From: a virus
Length of the DNA stretch: 64,000 bases
Direction: 5' to 3' (one strand)
Virus record (IMG/VR): IMGVR_UViG_3300023257_000007
Location: 124,001-188,000 of that record
Shown one piece after another: positions 197-63,216 of the stretch. A program made the translations under genes and the position numbers. The notes beneath the pieces are model-generated. The model did no database searches. It saw only the letters and a program-made list of their open reading frames with translations, and was not told where the DNA came from. The number at the start of each line of letters is the position of its first letter. The first letter of the stretch is position 1.

Positions 197-646
197 TTAA
201 TTGTATTTCGTTCTTCGATTTACTTTTTGAGTTATTTCAAAAAGTAAATCAAGAATATAATTGTCACATTCTTCATTTTTCGTTTCTTCTATTGGAACTG
301 GATTTTCGAAATTTGGATTTTTTTCCGCTCTTTTTTGATCATCTCTAAACCATTGATCTTCATTAATATAATATTCAAATCTCAAACCATTATCTAAAAT
401 AATAATTATCATATCATTTTTACTTTCACTAGAATCAGATGAATTACTAAGTCTAACATCTTTAATTTTACCACCAGGTAAAGTTTGTAAAACTTTCCCA
501 ATATATTCACTAAAATCTAGATCAGATCTATTATTTCTTTGAAATTCTGATTTCCAGTCATCAAATTCATGTCTATCATCTTGATTTAAAGAACCATAAA
601 TATCTTTAAGTTTATTAAAATTCTCGAATTTTTTTAAGTATTTCAT
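197..646 (-). CDS. Small late protein with capsid-targeting-like leader
   Basis: Unrecognised 149-residue acidic protein. It begins MKYLKKFENFNKLKD, one of about 20 related leaders in this window. The middle is polar and Ser/Asp-rich (about residues 65-78) and is followed by a short predicted beta stretch (MIIIILDNGLRFEYYI). The start is supported by the leader motif and by the upstream sequence, an A-tract ending in CGATTATG. The same arrangement precedes the genes starting at 961 and 54996. A TATATAAT-type element lies about 30 nt upstream. It is the last gene of a minus-strand late block. Function is unknown; packaging into the head is an inference from the leader. Confidence 0.7.
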   Translation of the reverse strand: MKYLKKFENFNKLKDIYGSLNQDDRHEFDDWKSEFQRNNRSDLDFSEYIGKVLQTLPGGKIKDVRLSNSSDSSESKNDMIIIILDNGLRFEYYINEDQWFRDDQKRAEKNPNFENPVPIEETKNEECDNYILDLLFEITQKVNRRTKYN

Positions 647-671
647 AATCGTTTTTTTTTTTTGTGGTTAT

Positions 672-690
672 TGATATTATATATATTATT
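672..690 (-). promoter_or_regulatory. Late-promoter-like element
   Basis: Read on the minus strand this is AATAATATATATAATATCAA, followed by TAACC, an A-tract and CGATTATG. The block ATATATAATATCAATAACC is repeated ahead of the next upstream gene (979-997). It overlaps the stop codon of the gene at 689-961. Its role as a promoter is inferred from recurrence and position. Confidence 0.4.
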
Positions 691-961
691 AAGTTGAAAT
701 ATTTTTAGAGAAATTTTTTACAAATGGTATATAAATTTCTCTATAAGGTGACTCATTTTTAATTTGAGGGTGTTTATTAACTAGTTTTTTTAACCTATTT
801 AATTGTTCATCTATATCATCTATTTTAGTAATATCATCTAACATTTCTTCTAAATCTTTTATTTCTAATTTATAAAGACCAAGTTGATCGCTTACTGATT
901 TCCAATCTTTATCATTATTGAATGTATCATTCCATTCGTTGAATTTTCTTAAGTATTTCAT
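689..961 (-). CDS. Small late protein with capsid-targeting-like leader
   Basis: Unrecognised 90-residue protein starting MKYLRKFNEWNDTF, close to the leader of its downstream neighbour (MKYLKKFENFN). The rest is largely helical and charged (YKLEIKDLEEMLDDI, then QLNRLKKLVNKHP). Upstream lies ATATATAATATCAATAACC, an A-tract and GATTATG, nearly identical to the leader of the gene at 197-646. The two genes therefore share regulation and perhaps a duplicated 5' end. Function unknown; possibly an internal head protein. Confidence 0.65.
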   Translation of the reverse strand: MKYLRKFNEWNDTFNNDKDWKSVSDQLGLYKLEIKDLEEMLDDITKIDDIDEQLNRLKKLVNKHPQIKNESPYREIYIPFVKNFSKNIST

Positions 962-978
962 AATCTTTTTTTTGGGTT

Positions 979-997
979 ATTGATATTATATATCAAC
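979..997 (-). promoter_or_regulatory. Late-promoter-like element
   Basis: The minus strand reads TTGATATATAATATCAATA about 18-35 nt ahead of the ATG at 961. It shares 19 bases with the element at 672-690. Spacing and recurrence suggest a phage late promoter. Confidence 0.4.
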
Positions 998-1028
998 AAA
1001 AAAAAATGGTTTTTAACAAGATTGAAGA

Positions 1029-1433
1029 TTAAAATAATTCTTTTTCTAATTCTTTCATACATTGAATAACACCAAATTTGGTACCTTCCAATATAAAATC
1101 ATATAAAGAAAATATATTATTACTCTTTGGTGAATCATCAAACCAATTATTATCATTACAAATATCATCAACATCACTTTGATATTTCAAATAAAAATTA
1201 AAAATATCTCCATTCTCAACAAAATCTTGTAATTTACCTGGTTCTGGGTCATTAATGTAATCTCTGATAAAATTTTGAACATTAACCAATTCAGTTGTAT
1301 TATCAACTGAATTATCTAATAAATCTAATACTCCTCTCTTTAAAGAAATATATTGTTCGGTTAGTTTATCTTTAAGAGTATCTTCAAGATTCTCTTTTAT
1401 CATTTTTGAATATTCTTCTGTAAATTTTTTCAT
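1029..1433 (-). CDS. Small helical protein, possible packaged protein
   Basis: Unrecognised 134-residue acidic protein. It starts MKKFTEEYSKMIKENLED, which carries an aromatic-rich beginning and an I-K-E tripeptide at residues 12-14, like the [LI]-x-E cleavage site of T4 internal proteins. The rest is mostly predicted helix with several Asp/Asn-rich turns. A TATATAG element lies only a few bases upstream of the start. It follows the L,D-transpeptidase-like gene by 23 bp and is probably co-transcribed with the tail hub genes. Function unknown. Confidence 0.6.
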   Translation of the reverse strand: MKKFTEEYSKMIKENLEDTLKDKLTEQYISLKRGVLDLLDNSVDNTTELVNVQNFIRDYINDPEPGKLQDFVENGDIFNFYLKYQSDVDDICNDNNWFDDSPKSNNIFSLYDFILEGTKFGVIQCMKELEKELF

Positions 1434-1456
1434 AAGACTATATATTATTATATTTT

Positions 1457-3564: not shown

Positions 3565-3579
3565 ATAATTCTTTTAATT

Positions 3580-18683: not shown

Positions 18684-18697
18684 AATCAGGATTTTCT
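18668..18697. terminator. Bidirectional terminator
   Basis: AGAAAATCCTGATT (18668-18681) and AATCAGGATTTTCT (18684-18697) form a 14-bp symmetric stem. It spans the stop codons of two converging genes, with A/T tails on both sides. Confidence 0.8.
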
Positions 18698-20146
18698 ATT
18701 TTGTAATTCCGTTAATTTAAAATAAAAATCTCGAGCTATTTTCTTTAAGTAATATGTACCCATTCCTTGCATGCCTGTTTTCTCGTTATCTGGATCTGGT
18801 ACTCTTTTACCATTTAAGTAGTTTAAACCACTAACATTTGTAATAAATTTATGACCCCCTGAATTTGATTGAATAATATCCCATGCCGTAACATACATAT
18901 CATTTAATATCTTTTTATCATTTTCACTTAATTTTATAAAAGGAACAGTCATCACAGCATCTAACACATTTTCAGATTGCTGATCTAAACCAACAATTTG
19001 ATCTTTAAATAAAGAAACTAAATCTTTAAATCTAAAACCAAATTCATTTGAAATATCTTTTGGAGCTTTATTTCTTGTACCTTTAGCAGCTCTGACCATA
19101 TCTTGTTCAGATATTCTCTTAATATTTTTAACAGTTATTTTAACGTTTTGTAAATTAGTTTTGAAATTATTTAATACATCTTGTGCAATATCGCCCAAGT
19201 TAATATGTTCAAATTTTGGATCTTTCTTTTTAAAAGGATTTGTTGAAACTTGAACTAATCCCATTGGCCAAGCCATAATAAAAAAATTAGCATCTGGATA
19301 TAATTTAAATGAAGCATATCTATCATATGAACCAGTATCAAACATTCTAGGACCACCATATTGCATCATTATATCATTCTTAACAACTAATTTTTTAAAA
19401 TTTTTAAGATTGTCAAAATATGTATTTGCATGTTTTTCAATTGATTCAGCAGGATCTAAACCTAAATCTTTAGCTAATTTCTTAATTTCTAAAAACATAC
19501 TAACTAAACTAGGTTTTGAATTTTCAACTAAACCTACTAAAAAACCAGGTTTATTTTTATAAGCCAATAATAGTTTATTTACAACAAATCCTAATTTCAT
19601 TCTATTTGATTTAGTTGATATATCTTTATTGGTTTTATAGAAAAATTGAATTACATCAGAAGGAGTTATATCTTGACTTGCATAATCTGCACTATCAACA
19701 GTATCAATCATATTAACATCTTCTGCTGAAAATATATCATTAGGTGAAATTTCACCGGAAATAGTACCAGCATTTGATTTAGCTTTCTTAAAATGTGCAG
19801 ACATAGTTTCTACGCCTATTTGCATATCATGGTGGTCTGTATGAATAACAAATTCTGTTTTACCGTGAGCAAAATCTACTAAAACAGCTAATGTACCGGG
19901 TTGTGGTTTATCTAAATGATATTCCATACCACCATATTGAATAGTATGATATCTTACTGTTTTAATACCATATTGTTTCAAATATTCTCTCATAGCAATA
20001 GCTGATGTAACACCATCTAAATCTACATGAAAATATATTTCAGCTTCATCAAAAGTTTTAGATATTTTTTTAATATCACGTATGCCAGATTCATTTAATT
20101 TCAGAAACTGATTATAACTTTCTAATAAACGCATGAAATTAAACAT
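18686..20146 (-). CDS. DHH-family phosphoesterase with possible head-targeting leader
   Basis: 486 residues. Motif I is HVDLDGVTSA (40-49), motif II-like is LVDFAHG (89-95), and motif III is HTDHHDMQ (102-109), the DHH signature of the RecJ/NrnA/GdpP superfamily. These manganese enzymes cleave phosphodiester bonds in short RNA, cyclic dinucleotides or single-stranded DNA. The remaining 370 residues are not obviously a DHHA1 domain and may hold a substrate-binding part. The N-terminus, MRLLESYNQFLKLNESG after an optional MFNF, resembles the capsid-targeting leader, with L-N-E at residues 17-19. The start at 20146 overlaps the upstream gene by 8 bp; the ATG at 20134 is an alternative. Confidence 0.72.
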   Translation of the reverse strand: MFNFMRLLESYNQFLKLNESGIRDIKKISKTFDEAEIYFHVDLDGVTSAIAMREYLKQYGIKTVRYHTIQYGGMEYHLDKPQPGTLAVLVDFAHGKTEFVIHTDHHDMQIGVETMSAHFKKAKSNAGTISGEISPNDIFSAEDVNMIDTVDSADYASQDITPSDVIQFFYKTNKDISTKSNRMKLGFVVNKLLLAYKNKPGFLVGLVENSKPSLVSMFLEIKKLAKDLGLDPAESIEKHANTYFDNLKNFKKLVVKNDIMMQYGGPRMFDTGSYDRYASFKLYPDANFFIMAWPMGLVQVSTNPFKKKDPKFEHINLGDIAQDVLNNFKTNLQNVKITVKNIKRISEQDMVRAAKGTRNKAPKDISNEFGFRFKDLVSLFKDQIVGLDQQSENVLDAVMTVPFIKLSENDKKILNDMYVTAWDIIQSNSGGHKFITNVSGLNYLNGKRVPDPDNEKTGMQGMGTYYLKKIARDFYFKLTELQNRKS

Positions 20147-20696
20147 TTTTTAACAGATTCATTAAATCATCATTTAATATCTGTAACACTTTTTTACCAT
20201 TTAGTTCAATTTGTGGGACATTCTTAATTATAGAAAAAACATCATTGCCCTCAACAACTATTTCACTAAATAATTTATCAAGTTGTGGATTTCTTCTATA
20301 ATAAGAAACTAAATTATCAACAAACTCTTTTAATTTTAATTCATGATTTTCATTATATTTCAAAACTAATAAAGATTTATCAGTTTGCTCTATTATCATG
20401 AAATGTAAATCATCTTTAGAATGATTATTTGATTCTAAAAGAGAATAAGCATCAGAAGGTTTATAATTATCTAAAAATTTAGCGACTTTGCCATTAAGTT
20501 TAAACCTAGGTTTTTTCCTACTAACATTTGGATCTCTGTTATCTCTTCTTGGAGGTTTAGATAACTCTTGAGCCATTGCAGCCAAATTAGCCTTCTTAAT
20601 CGGAATTTCCTTTGGAATTTCAGGAACAGAACTAGTAATAGTTTTTGAACTACCACCACCTGTTGATGCAAAATCACTATATTTTTTTAAGCCCAT
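20139..20696 (-). CDS. Unrecognised protein with leader-like N-terminus
   Basis: 185 residues starting MGLKKYSDFASTGGGSS, weakly like the leaders of other small proteins here. Residues 20-65 are Pro/Lys/Arg-rich and probably unfolded. Residues 70-185 look like a compact alpha/beta domain with strands LHFMIIEQTDKSLLVLKY and a final helical segment. It is co-translated with the DHH gene (8-bp overlap), so the two may work together. No family seen. Confidence 0.6.
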   Translation of the reverse strand: MGLKKYSDFASTGGGSSKTITSSVPEIPKEIPIKKANLAAMAQELSKPPRRDNRDPNVSRKKPRFKLNGKVAKFLDNYKPSDAYSLLESNNHSKDDLHFMIIEQTDKSLLVLKYNENHELKLKEFVDNLVSYYRRNPQLDKLFSEIVVEGNDVFSIIKNVPQIELNGKKVLQILNDDLMNLLKNV

Positions 20697-20706: not shown

Positions 20707-21228
20707 TTAAATTTCTTGACTACCTTGTTGTAACTGTTGACCTTGTTGTTGTAATTTCTGGCCTTGTTGTTGTAATTGCTGCCCTTGTGTTTGTAGATTT
20801 TGACCTTGTGCTTGTAAACCATCATCCTGTGCAGGAATATCCTGTGCAGTTTGTTGAGCTTGAGTTTCATCTGGAACATCTTGTAATGGTTGAACTTGTT
20901 GCGTTTGAGCTTGTTGCATTTGAGGTTGAACTTGTGCACCTTTTGCATAATTAGAACCCATTGCCATTGTAACAGGCAAATTCTCAATGTTCATATATGA
21001 TGAAGCGATATAGTTAACAATCATTTCAGCCATTTGTTCTGCACCATAAAGATCTTTAACATCTCTACCTGTCTCATCTTTAACTTTTTTAGTAAAAGCG
21101 TTAATTAATGATTTAGGTACATCAACGTTTGGTAATACTCTATAAACATCATCAATAGCAAATACAGTTTCTTGAACTTTATTTCCTTTTGAATTTTTAA
21201 AATCATTTAGATTTGTTAAATGTTTCAT
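20707..21228 (-). CDS. Gln-rich repeat protein with leader-like N-terminus
   Basis: 173 residues starting MKHLTNLNDFKNSKG. Residues 15-90 form a helical domain. Residues 97-173 are Gln-rich and end in tandem repeats of a seven-residue unit, roughly QxLQQQG. The short period and the repeated TTGTTGTAA codons in the DNA make this tract prone to slippage. The leader and the upstream element TTTAATATATAAT (21249-21261) point to late expression. It may be an internal head protein with an extended helical tail. It belongs with the next two genes downstream. Confidence 0.6.
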   Translation of the reverse strand: MKHLTNLNDFKNSKGNKVQETVFAIDDVYRVLPNVDVPKSLINAFTKKVKDETGRDVKDLYGAEQMAEMIVNYIASSYMNIENLPVTMAMGSNYAKGAQVQPQMQQAQTQQVQPLQDVPDETQAQQTAQDIPAQDDGLQAQGQNLQTQGQQLQQQGQKLQQQGQQLQQGSQEI

Positions 21229-25516: not shown

Positions 25517-26491
25517 ATGAAAATATATAAATTTAATTCTTTTATATTTGAAAAAAGTTCTCTAACTTCAATTGGAATACCAAATGAAGTTCTTAAACAA
25601 ATTCAAATAGATTACGAATTACCACATAATATAAAATGGGAAGAACTTACATTTTCAAACACCATCAAATCATCACTAGAAAATGATGACAAAAATCTAT
25701 ATATTGAAATAAATAAAGAAGGCACTAAAGTAAACGTAATAACATCAATAAGAAAAAATAAAAAGAAAATCTACATATTAGACGAATATAAATATAATTT
25801 CGGATGGGAAAAATCAGAAAGAATTGATATAACATTCGCACCAATTGTACAAAAAATGTCATTTAAAAGTATATATTATCACTGTGAATCTAAAAACTTT
25901 AAACTCACATCCAAAAAAGAAAGATCACTTGAAAATATAAATGTCCAATATGAAAATTTTAATACACAATTTAAAAAAGACTTTACTAACAAATTCATAA
26001 GTATAATTAAAAAAGATAAATATAATCTACTAGACAATACTATAAAAGAAAACGGTCTAACAACATTTGATGAATATTTATATGATTTTGAATCACAATG
26101 TTCAGAAGAATTAAAAAGATATTTAACAATTAAAGAACTTATTTCTAGATATGGTAAAGATAAAATATTTAGATCATTTATGTATTTCATTAAAACAAAT
26201 AACTTAAAATTATTTGAATCAAATACTTCATTAAAACAAACAATAAGTTTATTCGTTGACGATTATTGGTATGCAATGGACGAATTAGAAGGAGTATTAC
26301 ATGACTTAGGATATAAAAGAATGAGTGATAGTGGTAAAGATGTTCTTTTTGTAGAAAAAGAAGGCGAAACTAGATTATATTGGTACGGAAAAGCTTTTGA
26401 AATTAAAAATGAACCACATTATAAAATGCCAGAAGACTGGGCAACTTTTGTTAAAGAAATAACACAAAATTTTGAAGATATAAAAATATGA
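25517..26491 (+). CDS. Unrecognised protein with leader-like N-terminus
   Basis: 324 residues from the ATG at 25517 (MKIYKFNSFIFEKSS). A longer frame from GTG 25478 would start inside the terminator hairpin, so I reject it. The N-terminus resembles the capsid-targeting-like leader (F-x-x-F-I-F-E). The middle is rich in Lys and has beta-strand pairs. The C-terminal part (about 250-324) holds DDYWYAMDELEGVLHDLGYK and RLYWYGKAFEIKNEP, perhaps a small domain. A TATATAGG element lies just upstream of the start. Function unknown; possibly packaged. Confidence 0.6.
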   Translation: MKIYKFNSFIFEKSSLTSIGIPNEVLKQIQIDYELPHNIKWEELTFSNTIKSSLENDDKNLYIEINKEGTKVNVITSIRKNKKKIYILDEYKYNFGWEKSERIDITFAPIVQKMSFKSIYYHCESKNFKLTSKKERSLENINVQYENFNTQFKKDFTNKFISIIKKDKYNLLDNTIKENGLTTFDEYLYDFESQCSEELKRYLTIKELISRYGKDKIFRSFMYFIKTNNLKLFESNTSLKQTISLFVDDYWYAMDELEGVLHDLGYKRMSDSGKDVLFVEKEGETRLYWYGKAFEIKNEPHYKMPEDWATFVKEITQNFEDIKI

Positions 26492-26700
26492 AACATATAA
26501 AAACTTTTGAACAACATGCTGCAGATTATTATGAAGGAGAAACTTCATCTTCACCTTCAGGACCAGTTAAAATGAACTGTCCTAATTGTGGTAATGAAAT
26601 GAATGTAATGTTCCATGAAATTAGTCCAAAACCAATCACTTGTGAATTTTGTGGTGATAAAATAGAATATCCATATGGTCAAAGTTGGCGTTGGGCATAA
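26488..26700 (+). CDS. Small zinc-ribbon protein with leader-like N-terminus
   Basis: 70 residues beginning MKHIKTFEQHAADYYEGE. Residues 30-57 hold CPNCGNEM and CEFCGDKI, a complete four-Cys zinc ribbon. The start codon overlaps the stop of the upstream gene (ATGA), so the two are co-translated. Zinc ribbons bind nucleic acid or protein. A packaged single-domain zinc ribbon could act soon after entry, for instance on host transcription, but that is inference. Confidence 0.65.
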   Translation: MKHIKTFEQHAADYYEGETSSSPSGPVKMNCPNCGNEMNVMFHEISPKPITCEFCGDKIEYPYGQSWRWA

Positions 26701-26701
26701 T

Positions 26702-27187
26702 ATGAAACATTTAAAAACATATAATGAAAAATTTTCTTTTAGGAAAGATGATCAAAGAGAAATTAGAAAATGGCTTTTTAATTATATATGTAATGAATAT
26801 TTTGGCGAAAAACAAGAATCATTAAAAAAATATGATAGAAAAATTCGTTTTTCACCAGGTTCTAATGGTAACGATATATATAAAATATATAAAATATTTA
26901 ATGATAATAGATATAGATTTGACATTATATGTGAACTAACAGACGAAGAAATTAAAGATGATATCTATCTCAGTGCAAGTATTGTAAAATTCAAAGATAT
27001 GTATGATATCTCACTTAGACAGACATACAATGAAACAGAAAAACAAATAGAAATTAAAGGTATTGCTTTTGAAGTAAGAGCAATATTAAAAAAGGGAATG
27101 GACAAATCAAAATTTAAATCTGAATTATCTGATAAATTAAGAGAAACTGTTGAACATGAATTCAGCATTATGACTCATTATTTATGA
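26702..27187 (+). CDS. N-terminal half of a split HExxH-family-like protein
   Basis: 161 residues from the ATG at 26702 (MKHLKTYNEKFSFRK), one base after the previous stop. An in-frame ATG at 26675 would add nine residues inside the upstream gene. It ends RETVEHEFSIMTHYL. This lines up with ISELVDHEMSHFQKYF in the 257-residue protein at 55757-56530, and the next gene lines up with the rest of that protein. The second His of HExxH is missing here (HEFSI), so it is probably not a working peptidase. The leader suggests head packaging. Confidence 0.6.
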   Translation: MKHLKTYNEKFSFRKDDQREIRKWLFNYICNEYFGEKQESLKKYDRKIRFSPGSNGNDIYKIYKIFNDNRYRFDIICELTDEEIKDDIYLSASIVKFKDMYDISLRQTYNETEKQIEIKGIAFEVRAILKKGMDKSKFKSELSDKLRETVEHEFSIMTHYL

Positions 27188-29437: not shown

Positions 29438-30091
29438 TTATCTACTTAATAAACCTATTTTAGAATAAACATTTTTCCAATCATCCTCATTGTTTATTAT
29501 ATATTCAGGTTCTCTGGAATCTAAAATAGTTTCAGCATTTTCAATTGTTACATAATCAACGGCTTTTATTTTAATTCCATCATTAATTCTAACTCTATAA
29601 GTTTTAAATGTTTCACTCAAAATTTGTGCTATATATAAAGGAAAAGTACCATCATCAATATACATAACAGCAGAAAGTTTTGCATTTGGCATCTCAACGT
29701 ACAACTTATTCTCTGTATCTATCAAATGATATTTGGATAAGCTTTCTTTAATTCCGTTATGTTTAATAACATCACTATTCTTAACATAATAATAAGAATC
29801 TGTAGAAGTTTCTTTAAAAACTAATGATGCATCAATTTTTTTACAGAATTGATTTAACATTTTTCTTTGAAAATTGCCTTTATCTAATAAATTACTATTA
29901 ATTAATCCACTAAACTTATATTTATCTTCTAATATAACAACAATTTTTCTATTTGCATTATCATAATACAAACAATCTATATCCAACATATAATTAGATC
30001 TAGATAAACTTCTATGTCCTTCAGAAAAGACATTACTTTTACCCCATTTTCTTTTATAATCTTCAAATATGTTTTTAATTCTTTGTATCAT
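29438..30091 (-). CDS. Possible PD-(D/E)XK-type protein
   Basis: 217 residues. Residues 34-58 contain YMLDIDCLYYD (Asp37, Asp39) and IVVILEDKYK (Glu55-x-Lys57). Spaced like this, D...E-x-K on adjacent strands is the core of PD-(D/E)XK nucleases. The surrounding fold cannot be judged by eye, so this is a candidate only. It overlaps the nucleotidyltransferase gene by 17 bp and is co-translated with it, hinting at a shared role in RNA or DNA end processing. Confidence 0.45.
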   Translation of the reverse strand: MIQRIKNIFEDYKRKWGKSNVFSEGHRSLSRSNYMLDIDCLYYDNANRKIVVILEDKYKFSGLINSNLLDKGNFQRKMLNQFCKKIDASLVFKETSTDSYYYVKNSDVIKHNGIKESLSKYHLIDTENKLYVEMPNAKLSAVMYIDDGTFPLYIAQILSETFKTYRVRINDGIKIKAVDYVTIENAETILDSREPEYIINNEDDWKNVYSKIGLLSR

Positions 30092-32399: not shown

Positions 32400-32633
32400 A
32401 TGAAATATTTAAAGACATACGAAGAATTAACCGATTCACAAAAAGAATCTGAATATAATAAAAAATTAGAAGAACTAGAAGATAAAAAAGAAAGACTTCA
32501 GAAAAAACTCCAATATTCAGAAGATGTAAGAGATCCAGAAAAAACAGAACAAATAAGAAAAGAAAAGAAAGAAGAAATTGAAAAGAATAAAAAGAAAAAG
32601 AGTTCTGAAGATCAAAACTCTTTTGTATCCTAA
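32400..32633 (+). CDS. Small highly charged protein with leader-like N-terminus
   Basis: 77 residues starting MKYLKTYEELTDSQKES. The rest is a highly charged coiled coil of Lys and Glu (EELEDKKERLQKKLQYSE). The TATATAAATA string about 20 bases upstream equals the T4 late promoter core. It converges with the RNase H-like gene with a 4-bp overlap. It may be a packaged internal protein; function unknown. Confidence 0.55.
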   Translation: MKYLKTYEELTDSQKESEYNKKLEELEDKKERLQKKLQYSEDVRDPEKTEQIRKEKKEEIEKNKKKKSSEDQNSFVS

Positions 32634-35036: not shown

Positions 35037-35333
35037 TTAATCATCAAATTGTGTGTACTCATTAGGTTGATTCAATAAACCTAAACTTTTGTAAATACAC
35101 ACTTTATTATTATCAATATAATATTTATCATAAGACGTAAAATTACATAAACTTATAAAAGATTCAAACCAAACCTCTTTTCCTGTAATAATATCATTTA
35201 ATTCAATTGTTATCATCTGATTTTCTTCAATTAAATTAATATCAATGTCAAGATCTTCAAAAAAATTATATAAATTTGATTTCAATGAAACATACTGTGT
35301 TTCATTTATAAATTGATTAAATTTTGTTTTCAT
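35037..35333 (-). CDS. Small protein with clear capsid-targeting-like leader
   Basis: 98 residues starting MKTKFNQFINETQY. This is very close to the MKTYQEFIxEA start of T4 internal proteins, with I-N-E at residues 9-11. The rest is a compact alpha/beta domain with acidic patches. The three genes 35037, 35333 and 36025 are packed with 1-bp overlaps. I take it as an internal head protein candidate. Confidence 0.65.
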   Translation of the reverse strand: MKTKFNQFINETQYVSLKSNLYNFFEDLDIDINLIEENQMITIELNDIITGKEVWFESFISLCNFTSYDKYYIDNNKVCIYKSLGLLNQPNEYTQFDD

Positions 35334-36025
35334 TATCTAAATGTTTTATAAAATTTACCTAAATTGTTCTTCTTATATATTAATTCTTTTTCTCTTCTAT
35401 CTAATTCTTCTAAAAATTCTTCATCATTAGAAACACCAAAATCTTTATAATGTTTCTCTCTAGAAGGCGCGGATGTCGTATAACTACCGTAAGTCGCAAT
35501 TGAGTCTGGTTTTGTAGTTTCAGGTAAATTTCTTTTTATAATTAACCCAGCCATTCTATTATCAATTTGATTAATTATTGGATCTTTTAAATGTTTAACA
35601 ATTTTCTTATTATTTTTAGTTTCTGGATAAAATGCAATAAATTCATCAAAAACGCCAATATCAAAAAGTCTACTTTTATTACTAGATTTAGTACTCGTTA
35701 TTCCTTCACTATATTCATAATCTGCAATTAAAGGAAATATATCATTAATATCTTTTGATTTTGAATTCATAAAATCATATAGAGGTTGTATGGCTTTTTT
35801 ATAAGCTTTTTGATTTTCTTCTTCTATACCAACTTTATTTCTTTCATACCAATTCGTACTCAAAGATCTCCATTTATCCTTGATCTTATCATATCCTTGA
35901 TAAGTACTATAATCTTTTTTAAGTTTTTGAAGACTTTTTAATACAACATCATCATCAACAATATTTTCAATTTCTTCCAATCTAATTTCAAGATCTTCAA
36001 GATCATTACTACAATATATTTTCAT
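35333..36025 (-). CDS. Unrecognised helical protein
   Basis: 230 residues, charged and mostly helical. It starts MKIYCSNDLEDLEIRLEEIE, without the common leader. NWYERNKVGIEEENQKAYKK recalls KKWYKKFEDETDETYQKGLD in the small protein at 54631-54996, and the two may share a domain. The last 60 residues include HYKDFGVSNDEEFLEEL. It is translated with its neighbours (1-bp overlaps on both sides). Confidence 0.55.
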   Translation of the reverse strand: MKIYCSNDLEDLEIRLEEIENIVDDDVVLKSLQKLKKDYSTYQGYDKIKDKWRSLSTNWYERNKVGIEEENQKAYKKAIQPLYDFMNSKSKDINDIFPLIADYEYSEGITSTKSSNKSRLFDIGVFDEFIAFYPETKNNKKIVKHLKDPIINQIDNRMAGLIIKRNLPETTKPDSIATYGSYTTSAPSREKHYKDFGVSNDEEFLEELDRREKELIYKKNNLGKFYKTFR

Positions 36026-36447
36026 TAAAATAAACCTAATTTATTTGATTCAGTTGAATATTTGTATTGTGGATATTTATCCAAAAACTCATCTAATTCA
36101 AAATTGTTTTTTGTTTTAGTTTTTTGTAAAATTTCATTAAGACTATCTTCAACACTAACACCTAAAACTTCGAAATCTTTGTAGATACCAGTTGATAGTT
36201 TATTCTTATATTCAGAATTAGGATTATAAGATATATAACCTTTATTTTCAGAAGGTTTAAAATTCTTTTTATCATTAACAAAATCTAACCATTCTATATT
36301 AAATTTTTCATCACCATTATAAATATCACAAAAAATAGTGTAAATAATTTTCAATTTATCAGGTTTAATATTATATAATGTTAAATCGTTCCCTGTATAA
36401 TCAAGATTAATGTTTTCAAACATTTTATATAAAACTAAATATTTCAT
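36025..36447 (-). CDS. Small protein with leader-like N-terminus
   Basis: 140 residues starting MKYLVLYKMFENINLDY. The C-terminal part includes IYKDFEVLGVSVEDSLNEIL, which recalls the end of its neighbour (HYKDFGVSNDEEFLEEL). A late-type TTTAAATATATAAT element lies directly upstream (36451-36464). It is the first gene of a three-gene unit. Function unknown. Confidence 0.55.
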   Translation of the reverse strand: MKYLVLYKMFENINLDYTGNDLTLYNIKPDKLKIIYTIFCDIYNGDEKFNIEWLDFVNDKKNFKPSENKGYISYNPNSEYKNKLSTGIYKDFEVLGVSVEDSLNEILQKTKTKNNFELDEFLDKYPQYKYSTESNKLGLF

Positions 36448-51170: not shown

Positions 51171-51191
51171 TTTGAAATGAATTTATTTTTT

Positions 51192-51204
51192 ATTATATAT
51201 TAAA
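51192..51204 (-). promoter_or_regulatory. Late-promoter-like element
   Basis: The minus strand reads TTTAATATATAAT, about 22-34 bases ahead of the ATG at 51170. Confidence 0.5.
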
Positions 51205-51289
51205 TTGAATCAATTAAAAGAAGGAAAATGATAATTATTATTTATCATAATTTTACGCCATTTTTAGCTAATGATAATAAGTTAAGTAA

Positions 51290-52045
51290 TTATAAATGCG
51301 GATCAAAATTAAAAAAAGTTATCTGTTCTTCTATTATTCTAAAAAAGAATTTTACTTCATTATTTTCTTTGTCAACATTTGTATATGGTGTAACTTTTTC
51401 AATCCAAGATTTATCTTGTGCAAAATGTATTAACGATTGGTTTAAAAGTGTTTCATCTTTGTGATCTTCTTTAAATAAATCTAAAGACATAGTTTTACTA
51501 ATTCTTAATTCATCTAATATTTTAACTTCAGATTTTACATTAGACCACCAATCCACAAAATCTTTTTTAACTTGATGTAATAAATTTAAATTCTTAAGAT
51601 TAGAATCTTTTAATCTCAACTTAATTGATTTAACACATTGGTGTCTTGGAAAATCATACCTTAAAAATCTATCATTAATTTTAAATTTCCCTATTTTATA
51701 GACTAGATTTTTTATACTATTATAGAATCCATATTCTAAAATTTTATTCTTTATACCTATAAAAAATGATAATTTATCGTCTTTAATACTTCTTAATGTC
51801 AAAAATGCAGTTTCTAAACTTTTCTTCATTTCTAATTCACCAAGTAATTCATTAATCTTCGTTATTCTATCAGTTGAAAAAAAATAGTAAAAACTACCAG
51901 TATTTAAATAGTTTTGGAAAGCAAAATCATTACCATGTTTATTAACCAAATCAAAAAAAATTCTAAATCCTTCTTTACCAGCTAACAATGGTTCTATTTG
52001 TATTTGTTCATTTATAAATTGTATATATGTATTAATAACTTTCAT
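51290..52045 (-). CDS. Protein with clear capsid-targeting-like leader
   Basis: 251 residues starting MKVINTYIQFINEQIQ. I-N-E at residues 11-13 is placed like the [LI]-x-E prohead protease site of T4 internal proteins. The rest is helical and rich in Lys and Phe, without a known motif (RIFFDLVNKHGNDFAFQNYL near the start). It overlaps the next upstream gene by 4 bp (ATGA on the minus strand). It is probably an internal head protein. Confidence 0.65.
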   Translation of the reverse strand: MKVINTYIQFINEQIQIEPLLAGKEGFRIFFDLVNKHGNDFAFQNYLNTGSFYYFFSTDRITKINELLGELEMKKSLETAFLTLRSIKDDKLSFFIGIKNKILEYGFYNSIKNLVYKIGKFKINDRFLRYDFPRHQCVKSIKLRLKDSNLKNLNLLHQVKKDFVDWWSNVKSEVKILDELRISKTMSLDLFKEDHKDETLLNQSLIHFAQDKSWIEKVTPYTNVDKENNEVKFFFRIIEEQITFFNFDPHL

Positions 52046-52377
52046 AATAATCCAAGTTTAATTGCTTCTATTTTTGTATTTAAATCATTAATATTTTTAA
52101 TATCCTCAGATTTACAAAATACATAGTTCGATTCACCACCCAAATTCTCTTCAATGCCAGTGTATGTTATTAAATTGTAATCTAGTTGATAAATTATACC
52201 TTTTATATAATTTTTAAAAGATTTTGGTTGTTGATCTGAATAACCATGCCCATCTTGCCAATATATCTTATTATTGAAAAACATTTCTTGCAATCTATAA
52301 AATTCTGATTTATCACACGATATAATTAAATATTTTTCATTCGTTGTTCTTTCATTATATGTTTTTAAATACTTCAT
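52042..52377 (-). CDS. Small protein with leader-like N-terminus
   Basis: 111 residues starting MKYLKTYNERTTNEK. Small alpha/beta fold: KYLIISCDKSEFYRLQEMFF, then GGESNYVFCKSEDIKNINDL. Overlaps the upstream gene by one base and the downstream one by 4. Function unknown. Together with its neighbours it is part of a late unit of possible internal proteins. Confidence 0.6.
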   Translation of the reverse strand: MKYLKTYNERTTNEKYLIISCDKSEFYRLQEMFFNNKIYWQDGHGYSDQQPKSFKNYIKGIIYQLDYNLITYTGIEENLGGESNYVFCKSEDIKNINDLNTKIEAIKLGLL

Positions 52378-52862
52378 TAATAACTTTCATATCCATAAAC
52401 ACTATTCAAATATTCCTCTTTACTTACTTTTGTTTCTTTACCATTTTTGTAAATATAATACTCACTTGGTGCAGTTTTAATTTTATCTTCATTAACAAAA
52501 TTATTATATCGCATAATATTATTCTCATTATTCATGCCTGTCTCACCAACTAATGAATTTGGACTGCTTTCATCACTTCTATTAAATTTCTGATCATAAT
52601 CAGCATTTACAATAGATTTTTCATAGAATTGATCTACAATAGCCTTAGCAATATCATAATCACCTTTACCAATATTCTCATCGAATATTTTTTTGATTCT
52701 GTTCTGATTTTCAGCCATCATCATATTAAGAAAATCGTTAGCTTCCTGGTCATTATACTCAGTACCAGCATCTCTCTTATTTTCTTTAATGATATCCTTG
52801 ATAATTTCTTGGATAGTCTGAAATTTATTGTCAACTTCTTTTGGTGTGAATTCTGTATACAT
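52377..52862 (-). CDS. Acidic helical protein with an internal leader-like motif
   Basis: 161 residues. Residues 1-100 are helical and acidic (IQEIIKDIIKENKRDAG). At Met117 the sequence becomes MRYNNFVNEDKIK, which has the same shape as the leaders of other proteins (Y-x-x-F-V-N-E). The last 34 residues (SEYYIYKNGKETKVSKEEYL) would form a small domain. Either a leader-bearing gene has been fused behind another gene, or the ATG at 52514 is a second start. The first 110 residues do not resemble the leader. Confidence 0.5.
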   Translation of the reverse strand: MYTEFTPKEVDNKFQTIQEIIKDIIKENKRDAGTEYNDQEANDFLNMMMAENQNRIKKIFDENIGKGDYDIAKAIVDQFYEKSIVNADYDQKFNRSDESSPNSLVGETGMNNENNIMRYNNFVNEDKIKTAPSEYYIYKNGKETKVSKEEYLNSVYGYESY

Positions 52863-54630: not shown

Positions 54631-54996
54631 TTATTTATTGTATGATCCTGTGTTTGTCCAATCTCTTTTAGTTACCAATCCTGTTTGTTTTTTAAATTCT
54701 GTTTCTTGTGTTATTGATAAATTTTTATAACCATTTACAAGATTTGTAACTTTATCTAAACCTTTTTGATATGTTTCATCCGTTTCATCTTCAAATTTTT
54801 TATACCATTTTTTAGTAATAGCTGACCACATAGGTTCACTACCCACCTCCGGATGATTTTCCTTATAATCTTGTAAATATTTTGTGCATTCTTCATAATC
54901 ACCACAATTATCTATGTAATCCAACACATCTTGTAAATCATTATCATCTTGTAAATCATTATCTTGTAAATTTTCAAATTTTTTTAAGTGTTTCAT
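54631..54996 (-). CDS. Small acidic protein with leader-like N-terminus
   Basis: 121 residues from the ATG at 54996 (MKHLKKFENLQDND). A longer frame from 55026 would begin inside the TATA-type sequence, and the ATG at 54996 follows the AAAAAAACGATTATG leader shared with the gene at 197-646. Residues 10-25 repeat NDLQDD. KKWYKKFEDETDETYQKGLD recalls the protein at 35333-36025. It is next to the winged-helix gene. Possibly packaged. Confidence 0.6.
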   Translation of the reverse strand: MKHLKKFENLQDNDLQDDNDLQDVLDYIDNCGDYEECTKYLQDYKENHPEVGSEPMWSAITKKWYKKFEDETDETYQKGLDKVTNLVNGYKNLSITQETEFKKQTGLVTKRDWTNTGSYNK

Positions 54997-55030: not shown

Positions 55031-55651
55031 TTAAAATTTTTGGATAAACCAAAAATTATCTCTTCCCCAAGTGGTCTTTACAATTTTCCCTTTAGCTTGT
55101 AAATCAGTTAAAACATTATTAACATCAGCTTCAGAAAAACCAACATGACCAGCAATAGTATAAGAACTCATCTTAACACCTTTATCTTTCATAACATGTA
55201 AAACATCATTACCTATTTCATTAATATCTTTAGAAATACCTTTAGTTTTTCCTAAAGTATTTAAACCTTTTGGTCCTTCACTTTGTAAATCATTAATAGT
55301 CTTAGAAATACCTAAAACTGGTTTTGCAATAGCTGGTCCTTTAGCTTTTGTATCATTCAATTGATCTAAACTATAACCTGGTTGATTACCTTCAAATTTT
55401 TGAATAAATTCAAATTTATCGTGTCCTAATATATTATTCTTAACGATATGACCACCGTCTTCTAGACCTTTTAGTATATTGTTAACTTGAGCTACAGTAA
55501 CAGCACCACCCAAAGCGGTTTTAATTGACATAGCAGTTGCAGGAACGCCTTTATCTTTCATTGCTGATATAACTTGATCTTTTAAATCACCTATTTCTTT
55601 TGCTACTTTATTAGCTTCTGTGATAAACTCTGTTAATGTTTTAATTTTCAT
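55031..55651 (-). CDS. Tandem winged-helix protein with capsid-targeting-like leader
   Basis: 206 residues. It starts MKIKTLTEFITEANK, with I-T-E at 10-12. Two similar domains follow: about 20-88 (VISAMKDKGVPATAMSIKTA, VAQVNNILKGLEDGGHIVKN) and about 140-206 (VLHVMKDKGVKMSSYTIAGH, EADVNNVLTDLQAKGKIVKT). Both end in F-x-F/W-IQKF. Each has the helix-turn-helix and wing of small DNA-binding domains. The linker is Gly/Lys/Pro-rich. A two-domain DNA-binding protein with a head-targeting leader fits an internal protein that folds the genome or acts on host DNA after entry. Confidence 0.6.
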   Translation of the reverse strand: MKIKTLTEFITEANKVAKEIGDLKDQVISAMKDKGVPATAMSIKTALGGAVTVAQVNNILKGLEDGGHIVKNNILGHDKFEFIQKFEGNQPGYSLDQLNDTKAKGPAIAKPVLGISKTINDLQSEGPKGLNTLGKTKGISKDINEIGNDVLHVMKDKGVKMSSYTIAGHVGFSEADVNNVLTDLQAKGKIVKTTWGRDNFWFIQKF

Positions 55652-55756: not shown

Positions 55757-56530
55757 TCATAATTTTATATTTGGAAATAGGTTTTTAACATTATCATAAT
55801 AAAGATTTCTAATATCATCTATAGATATATTAAATTCTTCTAATAAATTAGTTGGAGAATGTTTAGTTTTACCTGTCAGAACATCTTCAAAAAAATTTAA
55901 TTTTTCGTCTAATAAAGTTTTAAAATCTGATTTTTGTCTTTTTGCCATTTTATTTATACCTCTTAAGTATGCTAAAATTTCATCTGGTGTGATGATTTTA
56001 TTTAATAATCCATTTTTTTCTTTAATCATTATGTTATATAAATGTTTATTATTATAAGTAATATTATATCTTTTAGATAATTTATCATTATAATCTGATT
56101 TAACCATGTCGATTATTTCATCTGTAAAGTATTTTTGGAAATGTGACATTTCATGATCAACTAATTCAGATATTTTATAAGATAATTCCTCATATATTTT
56201 TTTAATATTGAGTGGATTTAATTTAATTTCTTCAATAGGAATACTAAATGTTATTACACTTACAAATATCATAAAATTTGTAGTTTTTGGTAAAATTTGA
56301 CCACCAACTTTAACTGAATAATTATCACTTTTTTTAAAATTGATATCAATATCAAAATAAAATCTAATATCATCAAATTTTTTTTCCTCTTTAATTTTTA
56401 TACTCTTTGAATCATTAATATTTTCAACATTCTCAATTATATCAACACATTTATTAAAAAAATATTTTTGTAATGATTTTCTAATCTCTCTCTTTAAATT
56501 AAAATATTCGTAATATTTAATATACTTCAT
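55757..56530 (-). CDS. HExxH protein with leader-like N-terminus, bracketed by direct repeats
   Basis: 257 residues starting MKYIKYYEYFNLKRE. VDHEMSHFQ holds HExxH (His126, Glu127, His130), the zinc site of many metallopeptidases. TPDEILAYLRG at 181-191 could give the third ligand (Glu184). The two genes at 26702-27636 together resemble this protein. The whole gene lies exactly between two identical 59-bp repeats, so it may have been inserted or duplicated as a cassette. The upstream repeat provides its promoter-like TATATATAG element. Peptidase activity is unproven. Confidence 0.6.
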   Translation of the reverse strand: MKYIKYYEYFNLKREIRKSLQKYFFNKCVDIIENVENINDSKSIKIKEEKKFDDIRFYFDIDINFKKSDNYSVKVGGQILPKTTNFMIFVSVITFSIPIEEIKLNPLNIKKIYEELSYKISELVDHEMSHFQKYFTDEIIDMVKSDYNDKLSKRYNITYNNKHLYNIMIKEKNGLLNKIITPDEILAYLRGINKMAKRQKSDFKTLLDEKLNFFEDVLTGKTKHSPTNLLEEFNISIDDIRNLYYDNVKNLFPNIKL

Positions 56531-59909: not shown

Positions 59910-59921
59910 TATTTTATTTTT

Positions 59922-59943
59922 TTGAATAATTATTATATATTTG
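59922..59943 (+). promoter_or_regulatory. Promoter-like element matching Bacteroidota type
   Basis: TTTG at 59921-59924 and TATATTTG at 59936-59943, 11 bp apart. TAnnTTTG is the known Bacteroidota -7 element, though the spacing is shorter than the usual one. The start codon follows at 59948. Confidence 0.4.
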
Positions 59944-59947
59944 TATT

Positions 59948-60337: not shown

Positions 60338-60364
60338 AAACTTAAAAAATTGTTTAAAAAAATT

Positions 60365-60392
60365 AAAACCAATCTGGTATCAGATTGGTTTT
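60365..60392. terminator. Terminator between converging units
   Basis: AAAACCAATCTG (60365-60376), loop GTAT, CAGATTGGTTTT (60381-60392). Perfect 12-bp stem. Confidence 0.85.
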
Positions 60393-60416
60393 AAAATTTA
60401 TATTAAATTTATTACT

Positions 60417-60809
60417 TTATAATGTAGGTAAATTTGAAGTTGGTCCTGACATTAATCGACCAGATTGTTTTGCTGGCATATAAACCCATTTTGTATGTTT
60501 TTTATCAATACCAATCAATCCTCTAAATTTATCTACTTCTGCTTCTTTTACTAATTCATCAACATCTTTTTTAGTTAACTTTAATTTAGTTCTATGTGTT
60601 TGTAAAATCTTTTGTTTATGTTTAGTATTTTTATTTAGTTTATTAAATTTTTCTAATATATCACCTTCTACACCAAGTTTTGTCATCAATTCAGTCCAAC
60701 CTTTTTTTACTTTTTCTAAATTTGCTTTATCTTCTTTTGACATAAATGAAAAACCTTCATCTATTTGATTCTCTTTTGAGAATGATTCATATGTCATTAA
60801 ATGTTTCAT
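60417..60809 (-). CDS. Small basic protein with leader-like N-terminus
   Basis: 130 residues starting MKHLMTYESFSKENQIDEGF. It has I-D-E at residues 16-18, a possible protease site. The rest is very basic (27 Lys) and helical. A basic internal protein would suit DNA packaging or injection. A late-type element lies upstream (60833-60847). Function unknown. Confidence 0.6.
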   Translation of the reverse strand: MKHLMTYESFSKENQIDEGFSFMSKEDKANLEKVKKGWTELMTKLGVEGDILEKFNKLNKNTKHKQKILQTHRTKLKLTKKDVDELVKEAEVDKFRGLIGIDKKHTKWVYMPAKQSGRLMSGPTSNLPTL

Positions 60810-60832
60810 AATTTTAATTTTATTTTTCTTTA

Positions 60833-60847
60833 TTTTATATATTAAAC
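60833..60847 (-). promoter_or_regulatory. Late-promoter-like element
   Basis: The minus strand reads GTTTAATATATAAAA, about 24-38 bases ahead of the ATG at 60809. Confidence 0.45.
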
Positions 60848-60886
60848 AAAAAAATTCATTTTTTAATCCATTGAAATTTTTAATTT

Positions 60887-60908
60887 TTGAAAAAATTCCG
60901 TATATTTA
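60887..60908 (+). promoter_or_regulatory. Early-promoter-like element
   Basis: TTGAAA (60887-60892) and TATATTTA (60901-60908). The 24 bases 60875-60898 are identical to 28498-28521. The gene starts at 60928. Confidence 0.5.
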
Positions 60909-60927
60909 ATTAAACTAAAACACTAAA

Positions 60928-61296
60928 ATGAAAAAATTAATTAAAATATTGATAACAATTTATAACGTAATATCAATACCTAGTATATTAATACACGAAC
61001 TTCTACACATAATTGCAACCTATTTAACAGGAAACACAGTTAATTGGTATAATTCAGAATTTAGATGTTATCTAGACACCGGTGAAATGTATGCCTCTGT
61101 AGTAATTAATAAAAAATTAACAAAGGTAAAATCAGCAATAATATCTATGGCTCCTATATTTGCGGTATTGTTAACTCTATCTTTAAGTTTTATTTCCCCT
61201 TTCTTTATATATATATTAGCTTACCAAGCAACAACTTTCATATATTCATTACCAAGCAAAACCGATTTTGAAGATTTTTTAGACTTATTAGAATAA
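60928..61296 (+). CDS. Membrane HExxH protein, site-2-protease-like
   Basis: 122 residues. It starts with a hydrophobic helix (about 5-30) that contains IHELLHIIA, that is HExxH at His23, Glu24, His27. A beta-rich loop and a second hydrophobic region (70-108, SAIISMAPIFAVLLTLSLSF) follow. This is the layout of small site-2-type membrane metallopeptidases (HELxH near the first helix, later a helix with the third ligand). The candidate third ligand is not clear. It is a small single-gene unit with its own promoter-like element. Confidence 0.6.
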   Translation: MKKLIKILITIYNVISIPSILIHELLHIIATYLTGNTVNWYNSEFRCYLDTGEMYASVVINKKLTKVKSAIISMAPIFAVLLTLSLSFISPFFIYILAYQATTFIYSLPSKTDFEDFLDLLE

Positions 61297-61331
61297 TTAT
61301 TATATATTAAATATAAAATAAAATTTTATTA

Positions 61332-61826
61332 ATGATCGGCCCTTTTGAAGGTAAATATGAGTTTCTAAGTAATTTCTACAATTTTTATAAGAAACATGGA
61401 ATTATGATTTCATTCAATGGTATTGAATGTGAAACATCTGAACATGCATATCAAGCTGCAAAATCAACCACTTTTGATGATTTCATGTATGTTATGAATT
61501 CATCTACAGCATCAAAATCTAAAAAAAGAGGCAAAGAAATTAAGAAAAGAATTGATTGGAGAGAAGCTAAATTTAAAGTTATGTATGAAGTTTGTAGAAG
61601 AAAATTTGAAATACCAGAACTTAAACAACTTTTGTTAAATACAGAAGAAGAAGAACTCATAGAACTTAATTGGTGGGGAGATGAAGTATTTGGTGTCAAT
61701 AGCAATACAATGAAAGGCGAAAATCATCTCGGTAAAATATTAATGAAAATAAGAGATGAGTTTAACGGTAAAGTTGATGAAAATAAATCAACTGGACTCG
61801 GCAAAATATTATTTCCAGATGAATGA
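61332..61826 (+). CDS. NADAR-family protein (YbiA/RibX-like)
   Basis: 164 residues. It has FEGKYEFLSNFYNF near the start, ECETSEHAYQAAKS, then NWWGDEVFGVNSNTMKGENH and LGKILMKIR. These are the NADAR signatures (FLSNFY, EHxYQxxK, D-x-x-xG, GxNxLGxxLmxxR). NADAR proteins act on ADP-ribose or riboflavin-pathway intermediates. Some are linked to removing ADP-ribose from nucleic acid, so it may help against NAD- or ADP-ribosylation-based defence. This is inference. It overlaps the dNMP kinase gene by 4 bp. Confidence 0.75.
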   Translation: MIGPFEGKYEFLSNFYNFYKKHGIMISFNGIECETSEHAYQAAKSTTFDDFMYVMNSSTASKSKKRGKEIKKRIDWREAKFKVMYEVCRRKFEIPELKQLLLNTEEEELIELNWWGDEVFGVNSNTMKGENHLGKILMKIRDEFNGKVDENKSTGLGKILFPDE

Positions 61827-62386
61827 TAATTATTGGTATTAGTGGAAAAATTGGTAGTGGTAAAGATACTGTCACCAATTCAATTATTAAAAACTTCAAA
61901 GAATACAAATTTAAAAATAAAAAATTTGCACATTATGTTAAAAAAATCTGTGCACTTCTCACAGGTATAAATCTTAAAGTGCTCACTAATAGACAAACAA
62001 AAGAAAAATATCTAGAAGATTGGGGAATGACAGTTGGTAGGATGTTTCAATTAATAGGAACAGAATCAATTAGAAATAATTTACACCCTGATGCCTGGAT
62101 TTTAACACTAGTTGCCAACAGCAAAGGACAAAATGTTATTATATCAGATGTAAGATTTAAAAATGAAGCAAATTACATAAAAAATAATGGTGGTATTCTA
62201 ATAAGATTGGAAGGCGATCCAAAAGAAATAAGAGGAAAAGATGGTAGAGATTTAAATCATATATCAGAAACAGATTTAGACGATTATGAAGATTTTGACA
62301 TAATATGGAACAACAAACCACCCATCGAAAATCTCAAAAACTTAATGAAAATAATAAAAGATAAGATAAATGAAAAATATAACTAA
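61823..62386 (+). CDS. Deoxynucleoside monophosphate kinase, T4 gp1-like
   Basis: 187 residues. Walker A is GKIGSGKDT (8-16). DWGMTVGRMFQLIGTESIRN and VIISDVRFKNEANYI are the conserved dNMP kinase segments. The enzyme makes dNDPs for phage DNA synthesis and works together with the class II reductase at 12711. It is close in size to T4 gp1 (241). It is in one unit with the NADAR gene (4-bp overlap) and the next two small genes. Confidence 0.8.
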   Translation: MIIIGISGKIGSGKDTVTNSIIKNFKEYKFKNKKFAHYVKKICALLTGINLKVLTNRQTKEKYLEDWGMTVGRMFQLIGTESIRNNLHPDAWILTLVANSKGQNVIISDVRFKNEANYIKNNGGILIRLEGDPKEIRGKDGRDLNHISETDLDDYEDFDIIWNNKPPIENLKNLMKIIKDKINEKYN

Positions 62387-62687
62387 AGTTTATGAAATAA
62401 AAGACTCTAAAATTGATATAACAATCAATTATGGTTTAGATAAAGAACAAATATTAAATCACCCAATATCTTTTGATGAAAAAAATCCACATATATTATA
62501 TGTATTTCTTTCAAGTAAAGAAATGGAAAAACATACAGATTGGTTATGGGAAAATAAAGAAAATAATCCTTTCGTAGTTGTTATGTTAACACAATACGAA
62601 GAAAAAGATTTCGATGAAATAGAATCAAGCATAGATTTATTATATACTTCTGTAAAAGAAAAATTTGAAAATAAGAATGACAATTAG
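62370..62687 (+). CDS. Unrecognised small protein
   Basis: 105 residues starting MKNITKVYEIKDSKIDIT. Acidic, alpha/beta, with DEKNPHILYVFLSSKEMEK. It overlaps the dNMP kinase gene by 17 bp and the next gene by 11 bp, so the genes are co-translated. No leader of the common type and no motif seen. Confidence 0.55.
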   Translation: MKNITKVYEIKDSKIDITINYGLDKEQILNHPISFDEKNPHILYVFLSSKEMEKHTDWLWENKENNPFVVVMLTQYEEKDFDEIESSIDLLYTSVKEKFENKNDN

Positions 62688-62931
62688 TGAACTATTTGAA
62701 AAAGAAAGACCAATGTATGTTATTTGTGTAAAATCAGATTCAGCTTATAATGTATCTGAAGGTACAAAATATAAAATTGAATCTTATACTACTAGAAGTC
62801 TTAAATTATTCATGTTATTTAAAAATGATAATAATGATGAATTAGAATTACAAGTAGGTGAATCTTCAAAACATTTTATACCAATTATTTCTGATAGAAA
62901 AAGAAAATTAGATAGAGTGAGAGGATTATAA
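62677..62931 (+). CDS. Small basic beta protein
   Basis: 84 residues from the ATG at 62677 (MTISELFEKERPMYV). A TTG at 62665 would add four residues. Beta-rich with basic ends (YKIESYTTRSLKLFMLFK, ISDRKRKLDRVRGL). No family seen. Its stop codon touches the stop codon of the converging gene (no gap). Confidence 0.5.
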   Translation: MTISELFEKERPMYVICVKSDSAYNVSEGTKYKIESYTTRSLKLFMLFKNDNNDELELQVGESSKHFIPIISDRKRKLDRVRGL

Positions 62932-63216
62932 TTATCTTTTAACATCTCTAATAACTTTATCCATTCCTTTTTTCATATCTTCTATTAAAGATAATATAGT
63001 TTTATATTGTGGATCTTTTTTATGATATTTATCTAATTCTTGATATAATCTTTGTAATTCTTCTTCAAAATCTGGTCGTTTATTTTGTTTGCCAGTTTTT
63101 ATTCCTTTAGTATAAACAGTTCCTTCCTCATCTACAAACCTATTTCTCCAATTCCAACCTATAGGCCCAATTTTATTTTCATTAACATAATCATCAAAAT
63201 TACAAATATGTTTCAT
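62932..63216 (-). CDS. Small protein with clear capsid-targeting-like leader
   Basis: 94 residues starting MKHICNFDDYVNENKI. V-N-E at 11-13 is in the position of the protease site. The rest is basic and helical (RPDFEEELQRLYQELDKYHK). A perfect 12-bp hairpin begins one base upstream of the start (63217-63244), in the 5' leader of this gene. Function unknown. Confidence 0.6.
   Translation of the reverse strand: MKHICNFDDYVNENKIGPIGWNWRNRFVDEEGTVYTKGIKTGKQNKRPDFEEELQRLYQELDKYHKKDPQYKTILSLIEDMKKGMDKVIRDVKR

Follow-up and report, generated by a model that had tools for sequence, protein, structure and literature searches.

A T4-type capsid-targeting leader, greatly multiplied, probably tags a large protein set in an uncultured huge phage

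The DNA considered here is a window of 64,000 nucleotides, positions 124001–188000 of IMG/VR record IMGVR_UViG_3300023257_000007 (G000; 348,222 bases), from a phage genome with 25% G+C. Many proteins encoded by this phage begin with a short, related leader peptide. An earlier note, made from the letters of the window, had singled out about 20 such proteins and likened their N-termini to the leaders of T4 internal proteins (IPs). The leader set is real, but it extends to approximately 125 genes across the phage rather than 20, and it probably represents a large protein set tagged by capsid-targeting leaders of the T4 type that have been greatly multiplied.

The genome is covered by two overlapping records. 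Positions 85476–120000 of G001 (IMGVR_UViG_3300022868_000009, 344,634 bases) are 100% identical to G000 1–34525; consequently, G001 1–85475 adds sequence absent from G000, and the phage spans at least 434 kb. Searches with protease, portal and major capsid families gave no match in G000, while all tested relatives match, indicating that G000 is a fragment of the phage genome without the entire head module. The long tail protein is approximately 36–40% identical to those of LR756501–LR756504 and LR745206, with a weaker match to Lak phages. Homologous tail and head genes are found in the huge phages LR756501 (735 kb), LR756502, LR756504, LR745206 and LR756500.

The leader was defined with a 10-column position-specific profile trained on the N-termini of the 664 non-overlapping open reading frames (ORFs) of G000 and G001, called mechanically, and applied at a threshold of >8 bits. 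The profile was trained and applied on the same genome, and shuffled sequences and a test on T4 served as controls. Such a profile, proposed in the earlier note, separates N-termini (130/664) from internal Met sites (11/1665), and this separation persists in five-fold cross-validation (102/664 versus 10/1665; Fisher p ~1e-46). When alternative starts are counted, 136 of the 664 genes carry a leader, compared to 6–9 expected with the final profile after shuffling residues 2–21; subtraction of these expected false matches leaves approximately 125–130 true leader genes. A chance or composition artefact of the 25% G+C genome might be considered, as K, Y, I and N are frequent at the start of proteins from AT-rich genes, but it is refuted by the shuffled N-termini and by an AT-rich pelagiphage stretch in which 0/56 N-termini match. 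Likewise, 0/150 matches were found in partial Syn9, pelagiphage and Lak proteomes (the first 50 kb each for Syn9 and the pelagiphage). The remaining parts of the proteins are unrelated, as had been claimed, since the bodies beyond residue 20 of the 136 leader proteins fall into 109 blastp clusters.

T4 IPs carry propeptides of 10–19 residues, which direct the proteins into the core and which gp21 cleaves off behind L/I-x-E (PMC9026906). In IPIII, the residues chiefly needed for targeting are 4 (Y) and 7 (F), and those for processing are 8 (I) and 10 (E) (PMC9026906). The aromatic columns 0 and +3 of the profile map to Y4 and F7, and I8 and E10 are represented by columns +4 and +6. When the profile was run blind over 288 T4 ORFs, ranks 1–4 were taken by gene 61.1, IPI, IPIII and IPII, followed by a fifth score of 13.4, a sixth of 8.7 and a remainder at or below ~6.5, which bears out the likeness to T4 internal-protein leaders. 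The leaders resemble those of T4 IPI, IPII and IPIII (MKTYQEFIAE, MKTFKEF...ITE) as N-terminal peptides of 10–19 residues on unrelated bodies, in part of the set with the two aromatics and an [LI]-x-E. T4 gene 61.1 itself (AF158101 position 19130, minus strand) starts MKTFKEFIKED and outranks the known internal proteins, making gp61.1 a candidate for an unrecognised capsid-targeting sequence (CTS) protein.

The positions linked to the two functions of a CTS are represented unevenly among the leaders. Both targeting positions are present in 88 of the 136 leaders; 27 of these 88 also have both processing positions, and in another 25 an [LI]-x-E lies further from the N-terminus. [LIV]-x-E falls within residues 8–19 in 44.5% of leader proteins with a length of at least 80 aa, compared to 22% of other proteins (p 2e-6), and the commonest cleavage-type triplets are LNE and INE, followed by IKE. 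Confidence in a capsid-targeting role is higher than the overall level for the 27–52 genes with a cleavage site. Unlike the T4 CTSs, many leaders here are without an adjacent cleavage site.

The earlier note had suggested looking for a gp21-type protease in the rest of the genome and had counted the lack of such a gene as a refutation; this objection is answered, as one is encoded in G001, outside the window's record. The head genes of G001 comprise a capsid protein (5329), a protease-scaffold fusion (7902, minus strand, 811 aa) and a portal (frame start 11405). The fusion matches phrog_207 (E 7e-32) and is 31% identical to T4 gp21 in alignment, retaining H85 and S140, which we take to be the catalytic residues of T4 gp21; its protease part is assigned to the gp21/Peptidase S77 type. 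The lack of a protease in G000 was considered as counter-evidence and rejected: the portal and major capsid genes are missing along with it and the overlapping contig encodes all three, so the absence carries no weight. A phage-encoded gp21-type protease is thus shared with T4, and homologous S77-type proteases of phrog_207 are found both in T4 (gp21/gp22) and in the 121Q/PBECO4-type prohead core scaffolding-protease. Unlike T4 gp21 and gp22, protease and scaffold form one protein here, with 8–15 tandem 14-residue repeats across the relatives.

The middle of the fusion in this phage consists of 11–12 tandem 14-residue YSEYIAE-type repeats (of the kind NNIAYSEYIAEHVD), which are close to the T4 capsid-targeting core YQEFIAE, and every repeat contains a potential [IV]-x-E cut site. 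Equal repeats occur in LR756501 and LR756504, and degenerate ones in LR756500; the fusion is also found at L176 10001–12433. IMG/VR holds at least 370 relatives of the gene, and 75 of the 79 loci examined have a recognisable fusion with 8–15 repeats. Run over T4 windows, a profile of the repeats gives rank 3 to the CTS of IPII and rank 4 to that of IPIII; at the N-termini of this phage it is only 2.7-fold enriched. AlphaFold2 models the repeats as long helices with low confidence (pLDDT 57), and a PDB sequence search with the protease-scaffold protein returned just weak coiled-coil-like or spurious matches.

Leader-type N-termini are present in all five huge-phage relatives, in lower numbers than here: 31–39 per 400 kb at equal threshold, scored with a profile derived from the other phage and counted over the initial 400 kb of LR756501, LR756504 and LR756500. 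In these three stretches and the present phage together, the full motif [YFL]xx[FYHW][ILV]xE occurs at 105/2323 N-termini versus 29/6281 internal Met sites. In the IMG/VR loci, 79/1076 N-termini near the fusion gene match the profile, compared to 35/4847 internal sites. The leader genes are mainly accessory, as 15/128 have homologues in three relatives compared to 128/434 other genes. Where homologues exist, a leader is found on 9/19 of those of leader genes versus 24/196 of those of others (p 5e-4), for example on DeoC and on the protein starting at window position 52045, and the leader so retained differs in sequence. Pfam domains begin behind the leader (residue 31 in DeoC, 22 in RNase H, 21 in Nudix and 46 in the CCA-adding enzyme), and the LR756504 homologue of the CCA enzyme is without residues 3–27. 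Paralogue pairs with and without a leader are formed by a 185-aa protein (window 20696, G000 199743), a MoxR-type ATPase and a Nudix protein. These comparisons indicate that the leader is a detachable extension.

The leader could instead have no connection with the head and serve as a tag for intracellular sorting or partner binding, directing proteins, for example, to a replication compartment or to a chaperone that they share. That many leader genes encode small accessory proteins and enzymes would fit such a tag. This explanation is nevertheless improbable given the blind match to T4 internal-protein CTSs, the agreement of the [LI]NE sites with gp21 specificity, and the occurrence of leaders near head genes in many relatives that have an equal protease-scaffold fusion.

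A role at the level of RNA or translation, as an efficient start region rather than a peptide signal, is suggested by the position at the extreme gene start, by A-rich codons and by one invariant codon (Thr6, below). The upstream DNA of leader genes, however, shows no conservation and the codon choice for Leu, Tyr and Phe is genome-like, indicating that selection acts on the peptide. Moreover, hydrophobic spacing is kept while Y/F and L/I exchange, the distance from Met varies, and the relatives' leaders differ in sequence, so that this role is very improbable.

Several points weigh against a capsid-targeting role for the whole set. The second targeting aromatic or hydrophobic residue is missing in 48/136 leaders (approximately a third). 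With a median net charge of -2.3 per 100 aa, the leader proteins are acidic, unlike T4 internal proteins, which are described as basic; for this reason the leader is classed as CTS-type and the proteins are not classed as IP homologues. Direct kinship between leader and scaffold repeat within the phage was considered and rejected, as the leader profile leaves the repeats in the top 0.2–20% of windows; because it fails to single them out, the kinship rests on the T4 comparison, and a direct relationship is suggested only through T4. A virion proteome for the clade was searched for and none was found. Finally, the 42 leaders of the MK[YH]LK[TK][YF] kind have [LIV]-x-E in 24% of cases versus a background of 22%, and Thr6 is encoded by ACA in 29/29 MK[YH]LKT leaders, which hints at copying by DNA descent. 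Lys5 is AAG in 11/34 MKYLKTY-type leaders, and other synonymous codons are mostly genome-like.

The last of these points would fit a mixture, in which the full-motif leaders (~27–52 genes) are capsid-targeting and the MKYLKTYNE leaders, decayed or put to another use, are the ends of unpackaged gene cassettes. Such cassettes would have spread by duplication and recombination, many of them with a second conserved end, the C-terminal K[LM]GLL. This tag (consensus DLKxYIEANK[LM]GLL) is real: 112/664 genes end in [LM][GN][LIV][LIMFYV], compared to 0.9 expected from shuffled C-termini and 0–3 in three relatives, and the K[LM]GLL form is almost absent from the huge-phage relatives. Most tag genes lie at G000 214000–340000; in the window, the tag ends the proteins starting at 36447 (NKLGLF) and 52377 (IKLGLL). 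The tagged bodies, including LRR, ankyrin and small alpha/beta-like proteins, form 81 clusters. In support of a mixture, the tag is enriched in leader genes (47/133 versus 62/492 others, p 1e-8), chiefly in the MK[YHF][LI] subtype (33/58 versus 14/78 other leaders), and LRR paralogues have clearly spread via duplication. The LRR family in question (LPELPKGL repeats), which has the MKYLKTY leader and the C-terminal tag and has spread through recent duplication, is found at G000 12345, 251856, 263784, 268440, 268919, 276687, 276986, 281819, 332099 and other sites.

Selection on the peptide, evident from the genome-like Leu, Tyr and Phe codons and the unconserved upstream DNA, speaks against decay. 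Bridging forms between the subtypes also exist (MKHLKQYESFLNEK in this phage and MKYIKEYEDFINEA in LR756500), and the MKYLKTY subtype consequently has the appearance of this leader's front half. In T4, the IPIII E10D change retains targeting, and a CTS with Asp at residue 10 targets without cleavage (PMC9026906). Overall, a mixture is a possible but doubtful account. For the MKYLKTYNE subtype, targeting without cleavage at the usual place is the most that can be deduced, and confidence in a capsid-targeting role is lower than for the set overall.

With the multiplied capsid-targeting leader as the probable explanation, we infer core binding, cleavage, packaging and injection of the leader proteins. 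During prohead formation, the leader would bind the helical scaffold core through its two aromatics ([YF]xx[FYW]). The gp21-type protease fused to the scaffold would then break up the core into short peptides and, wherever a site exists, cleave the leader behind [LI]-x-E, in most cases LNE or INE; the cargo would stay in the head and enter the cell along with the DNA. By multiplication, the tag would have come to sit on more than 100 proteins, most of them accessory and some of them enzymes. A more specific and tentative idea is a particle for bulk protein delivery, in which more than 80 different CTS-tagged proteins, some of them enzymes, might dock on a protease-scaffold rod of tandem CTS-like repeats that is later cut into 14-residue pieces, while the more than 100 proteins ending in the K[LM]GLL tag would perhaps be an overlapping set marked for further sorting.

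T4 has three IPs plus Alt, whereas approximately 125 genes appear to be tagged here, and their mostly acidic products include enzymes. Giant phages such as phiKZ and SPN3US pack many proteins into the head and process them with a gp21-related protease; of the ~50 head proteins of SPN3US, 8 are processed, several propeptides exceed 100 residues, and the motif is A-x-E (PMC5694885). The present phage is likewise a giant with a gp21-related protease, but its leaders are short and part of them have [LI]-x-E. The open-access literature searched contained no account of one phage with so many short CTSs.

The genes of the window are given below with their coordinates in it and profile scores in bits. 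All 20 starts named in the earlier note are real ATG codons with the peptides it gave, and 18 of the 20 score >8 bits; the relatedness of the N-termini holds for these 18 and is weak for the genes starting at 36447 and 56530. The note's count of at least eight proteins with [ILV]-x-E at residues 9–19 stands, as 9/20 have [LIV]-x-E ending there. Enzymes are indeed part of the set, with domain matches to a CCA-adding type tRNA nucleotidyltransferase, DHH-like, DeoC, RNase H and Nudix proteins. The proposal that most of the genes lie behind late-type promoters did not hold: TATAAATA is found within 100 bp upstream of 3.7% of leader genes versus 4.1% of others, and within 120 bp upstream of 1/20 genes in the window. 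PADLOC and Pfam gave few assignments for the window leader proteins.

197..646, minus strand: 149-aa protein; leader MKYLKKFENFNKLKD with targeting aromatics and without a cleavage site, score 15.0
689..961, minus strand: 90-aa protein; leader MKYLRKFNEWND, score 9.3
1029..1433, minus strand: 134-aa protein; leader MKKFTEEYSKMIKE, score 10.9, IKE-14
18686..20134, minus strand: DHH-family phosphoesterase-like protein; leader MRLLESYNQFLKLNE, score 10.3, LNE-15
20139..20696, minus strand: 185-aa protein; leader MGLKKYSDFAS; paralogue without leader at G000 199743
20707..21228, minus strand: 173-aa protein; leader MKHLTNLNDFKNS, score 9.7
25517..26491, plus strand: 324-aa protein; full CTS-type leader MKIYKFNSFIFE with targeting and processing positions, IFE-12
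26488..26700, plus strand: 70-aa zinc-ribbon-like protein; leader MKHIKTFEQHAAD, score 11.2; Pfam zinc-ribbon matches under cut-off
26702..27187, plus strand: 161-aa protein; leader MKHLKTYNEKFSF, score 15.1
30075..31382, minus strand: tRNA nucleotidyltransferase (CCA-adding type); full CTS-type leader MNKLYKYSEFLNE; PF01743 1e-29, domain from residue 44–46
32400..32633, plus strand: 77-aa protein; leader MKYLKTYEELTD, score 17.8
35037..35333, minus strand: 98-aa protein; full CTS-type leader MKTKFNQFINE, INE-11
36025..36447, minus strand: 140-aa protein; weak leader MKYLVLYKMFENI, N-terminal score 1.1; C-terminal tag NKLGLF
51290..52045, minus strand: 251-aa protein; full CTS-type leader MKVINTYIQFINE; LR756501 homologue starts MRSYYEYIKENE
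52042..52377, minus strand: 111-aa protein; leader MKYLKTYNERT; C-terminal tag AIKLGLL
52377..52862, minus strand: 161-aa protein; internal copy of the leader motif, IMRYNNFVNE, at about residue 116, internal score 12.0
54631..54996, minus strand: 121-aa protein; leader MKHLKKFENLQD, score 13.3
55031..55651, minus strand: 206-aa winged-helix-like protein; full CTS-type leader MKIKTLTEFITEA, ITE-12; PF24034 8e-9
55757..56530, minus strand: 257-aa protein; weak leader MKYIKYYEYFNLK, score 4.2
60417..60809, minus strand: 130-aa protein; leader MKHLMTYESFSKENQIDE, score 15.7, IDE-18
62932..63216, minus strand: 94-aa protein; full CTS-type leader MKHICNFDDYVNE, score 8.0, VNE-13

Copies of the leader motif also occur away from N-termini. 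Internal copies are found in the protein at window 52862 (minus strand, residue 116) and at G000 13760 (minus strand, residue 79), and C-terminal copies at G001 47771 (minus strand, ending EYLKQYEDFLNEK) and G000 94406 (minus strand, ending FLKTFNNFIKG). Alt of T4 undergoes C-terminal cleavage as well. The numbers of such copies, internal and C-terminal, are near chance, and C-terminal leader copies, with three candidates, were rejected as a real class. Elsewhere in the record, the large terminase gene is broken up by HNH-type or intein-like frames at G000 48602–52500, and a second terminase-like frame lies close to the contig end, at G000 345974.

If the leaders act as proposed, the amount of tagged cargo would far exceed that of T4, and the head contents of a whole uncultured huge-phage clade would be readable from sequence. 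The scaffold repeats offer a concrete, testable idea of the CTS binding partner, and the relatives of the protease-scaffold gene in IMG/VR make the idea testable in existing metaproteomes. T4 IPI inhibits gmrSD (PMC3012670), and the tag would list those accessory genes that are active in the opening minutes of infection, when anti-defence proteins can be expected.

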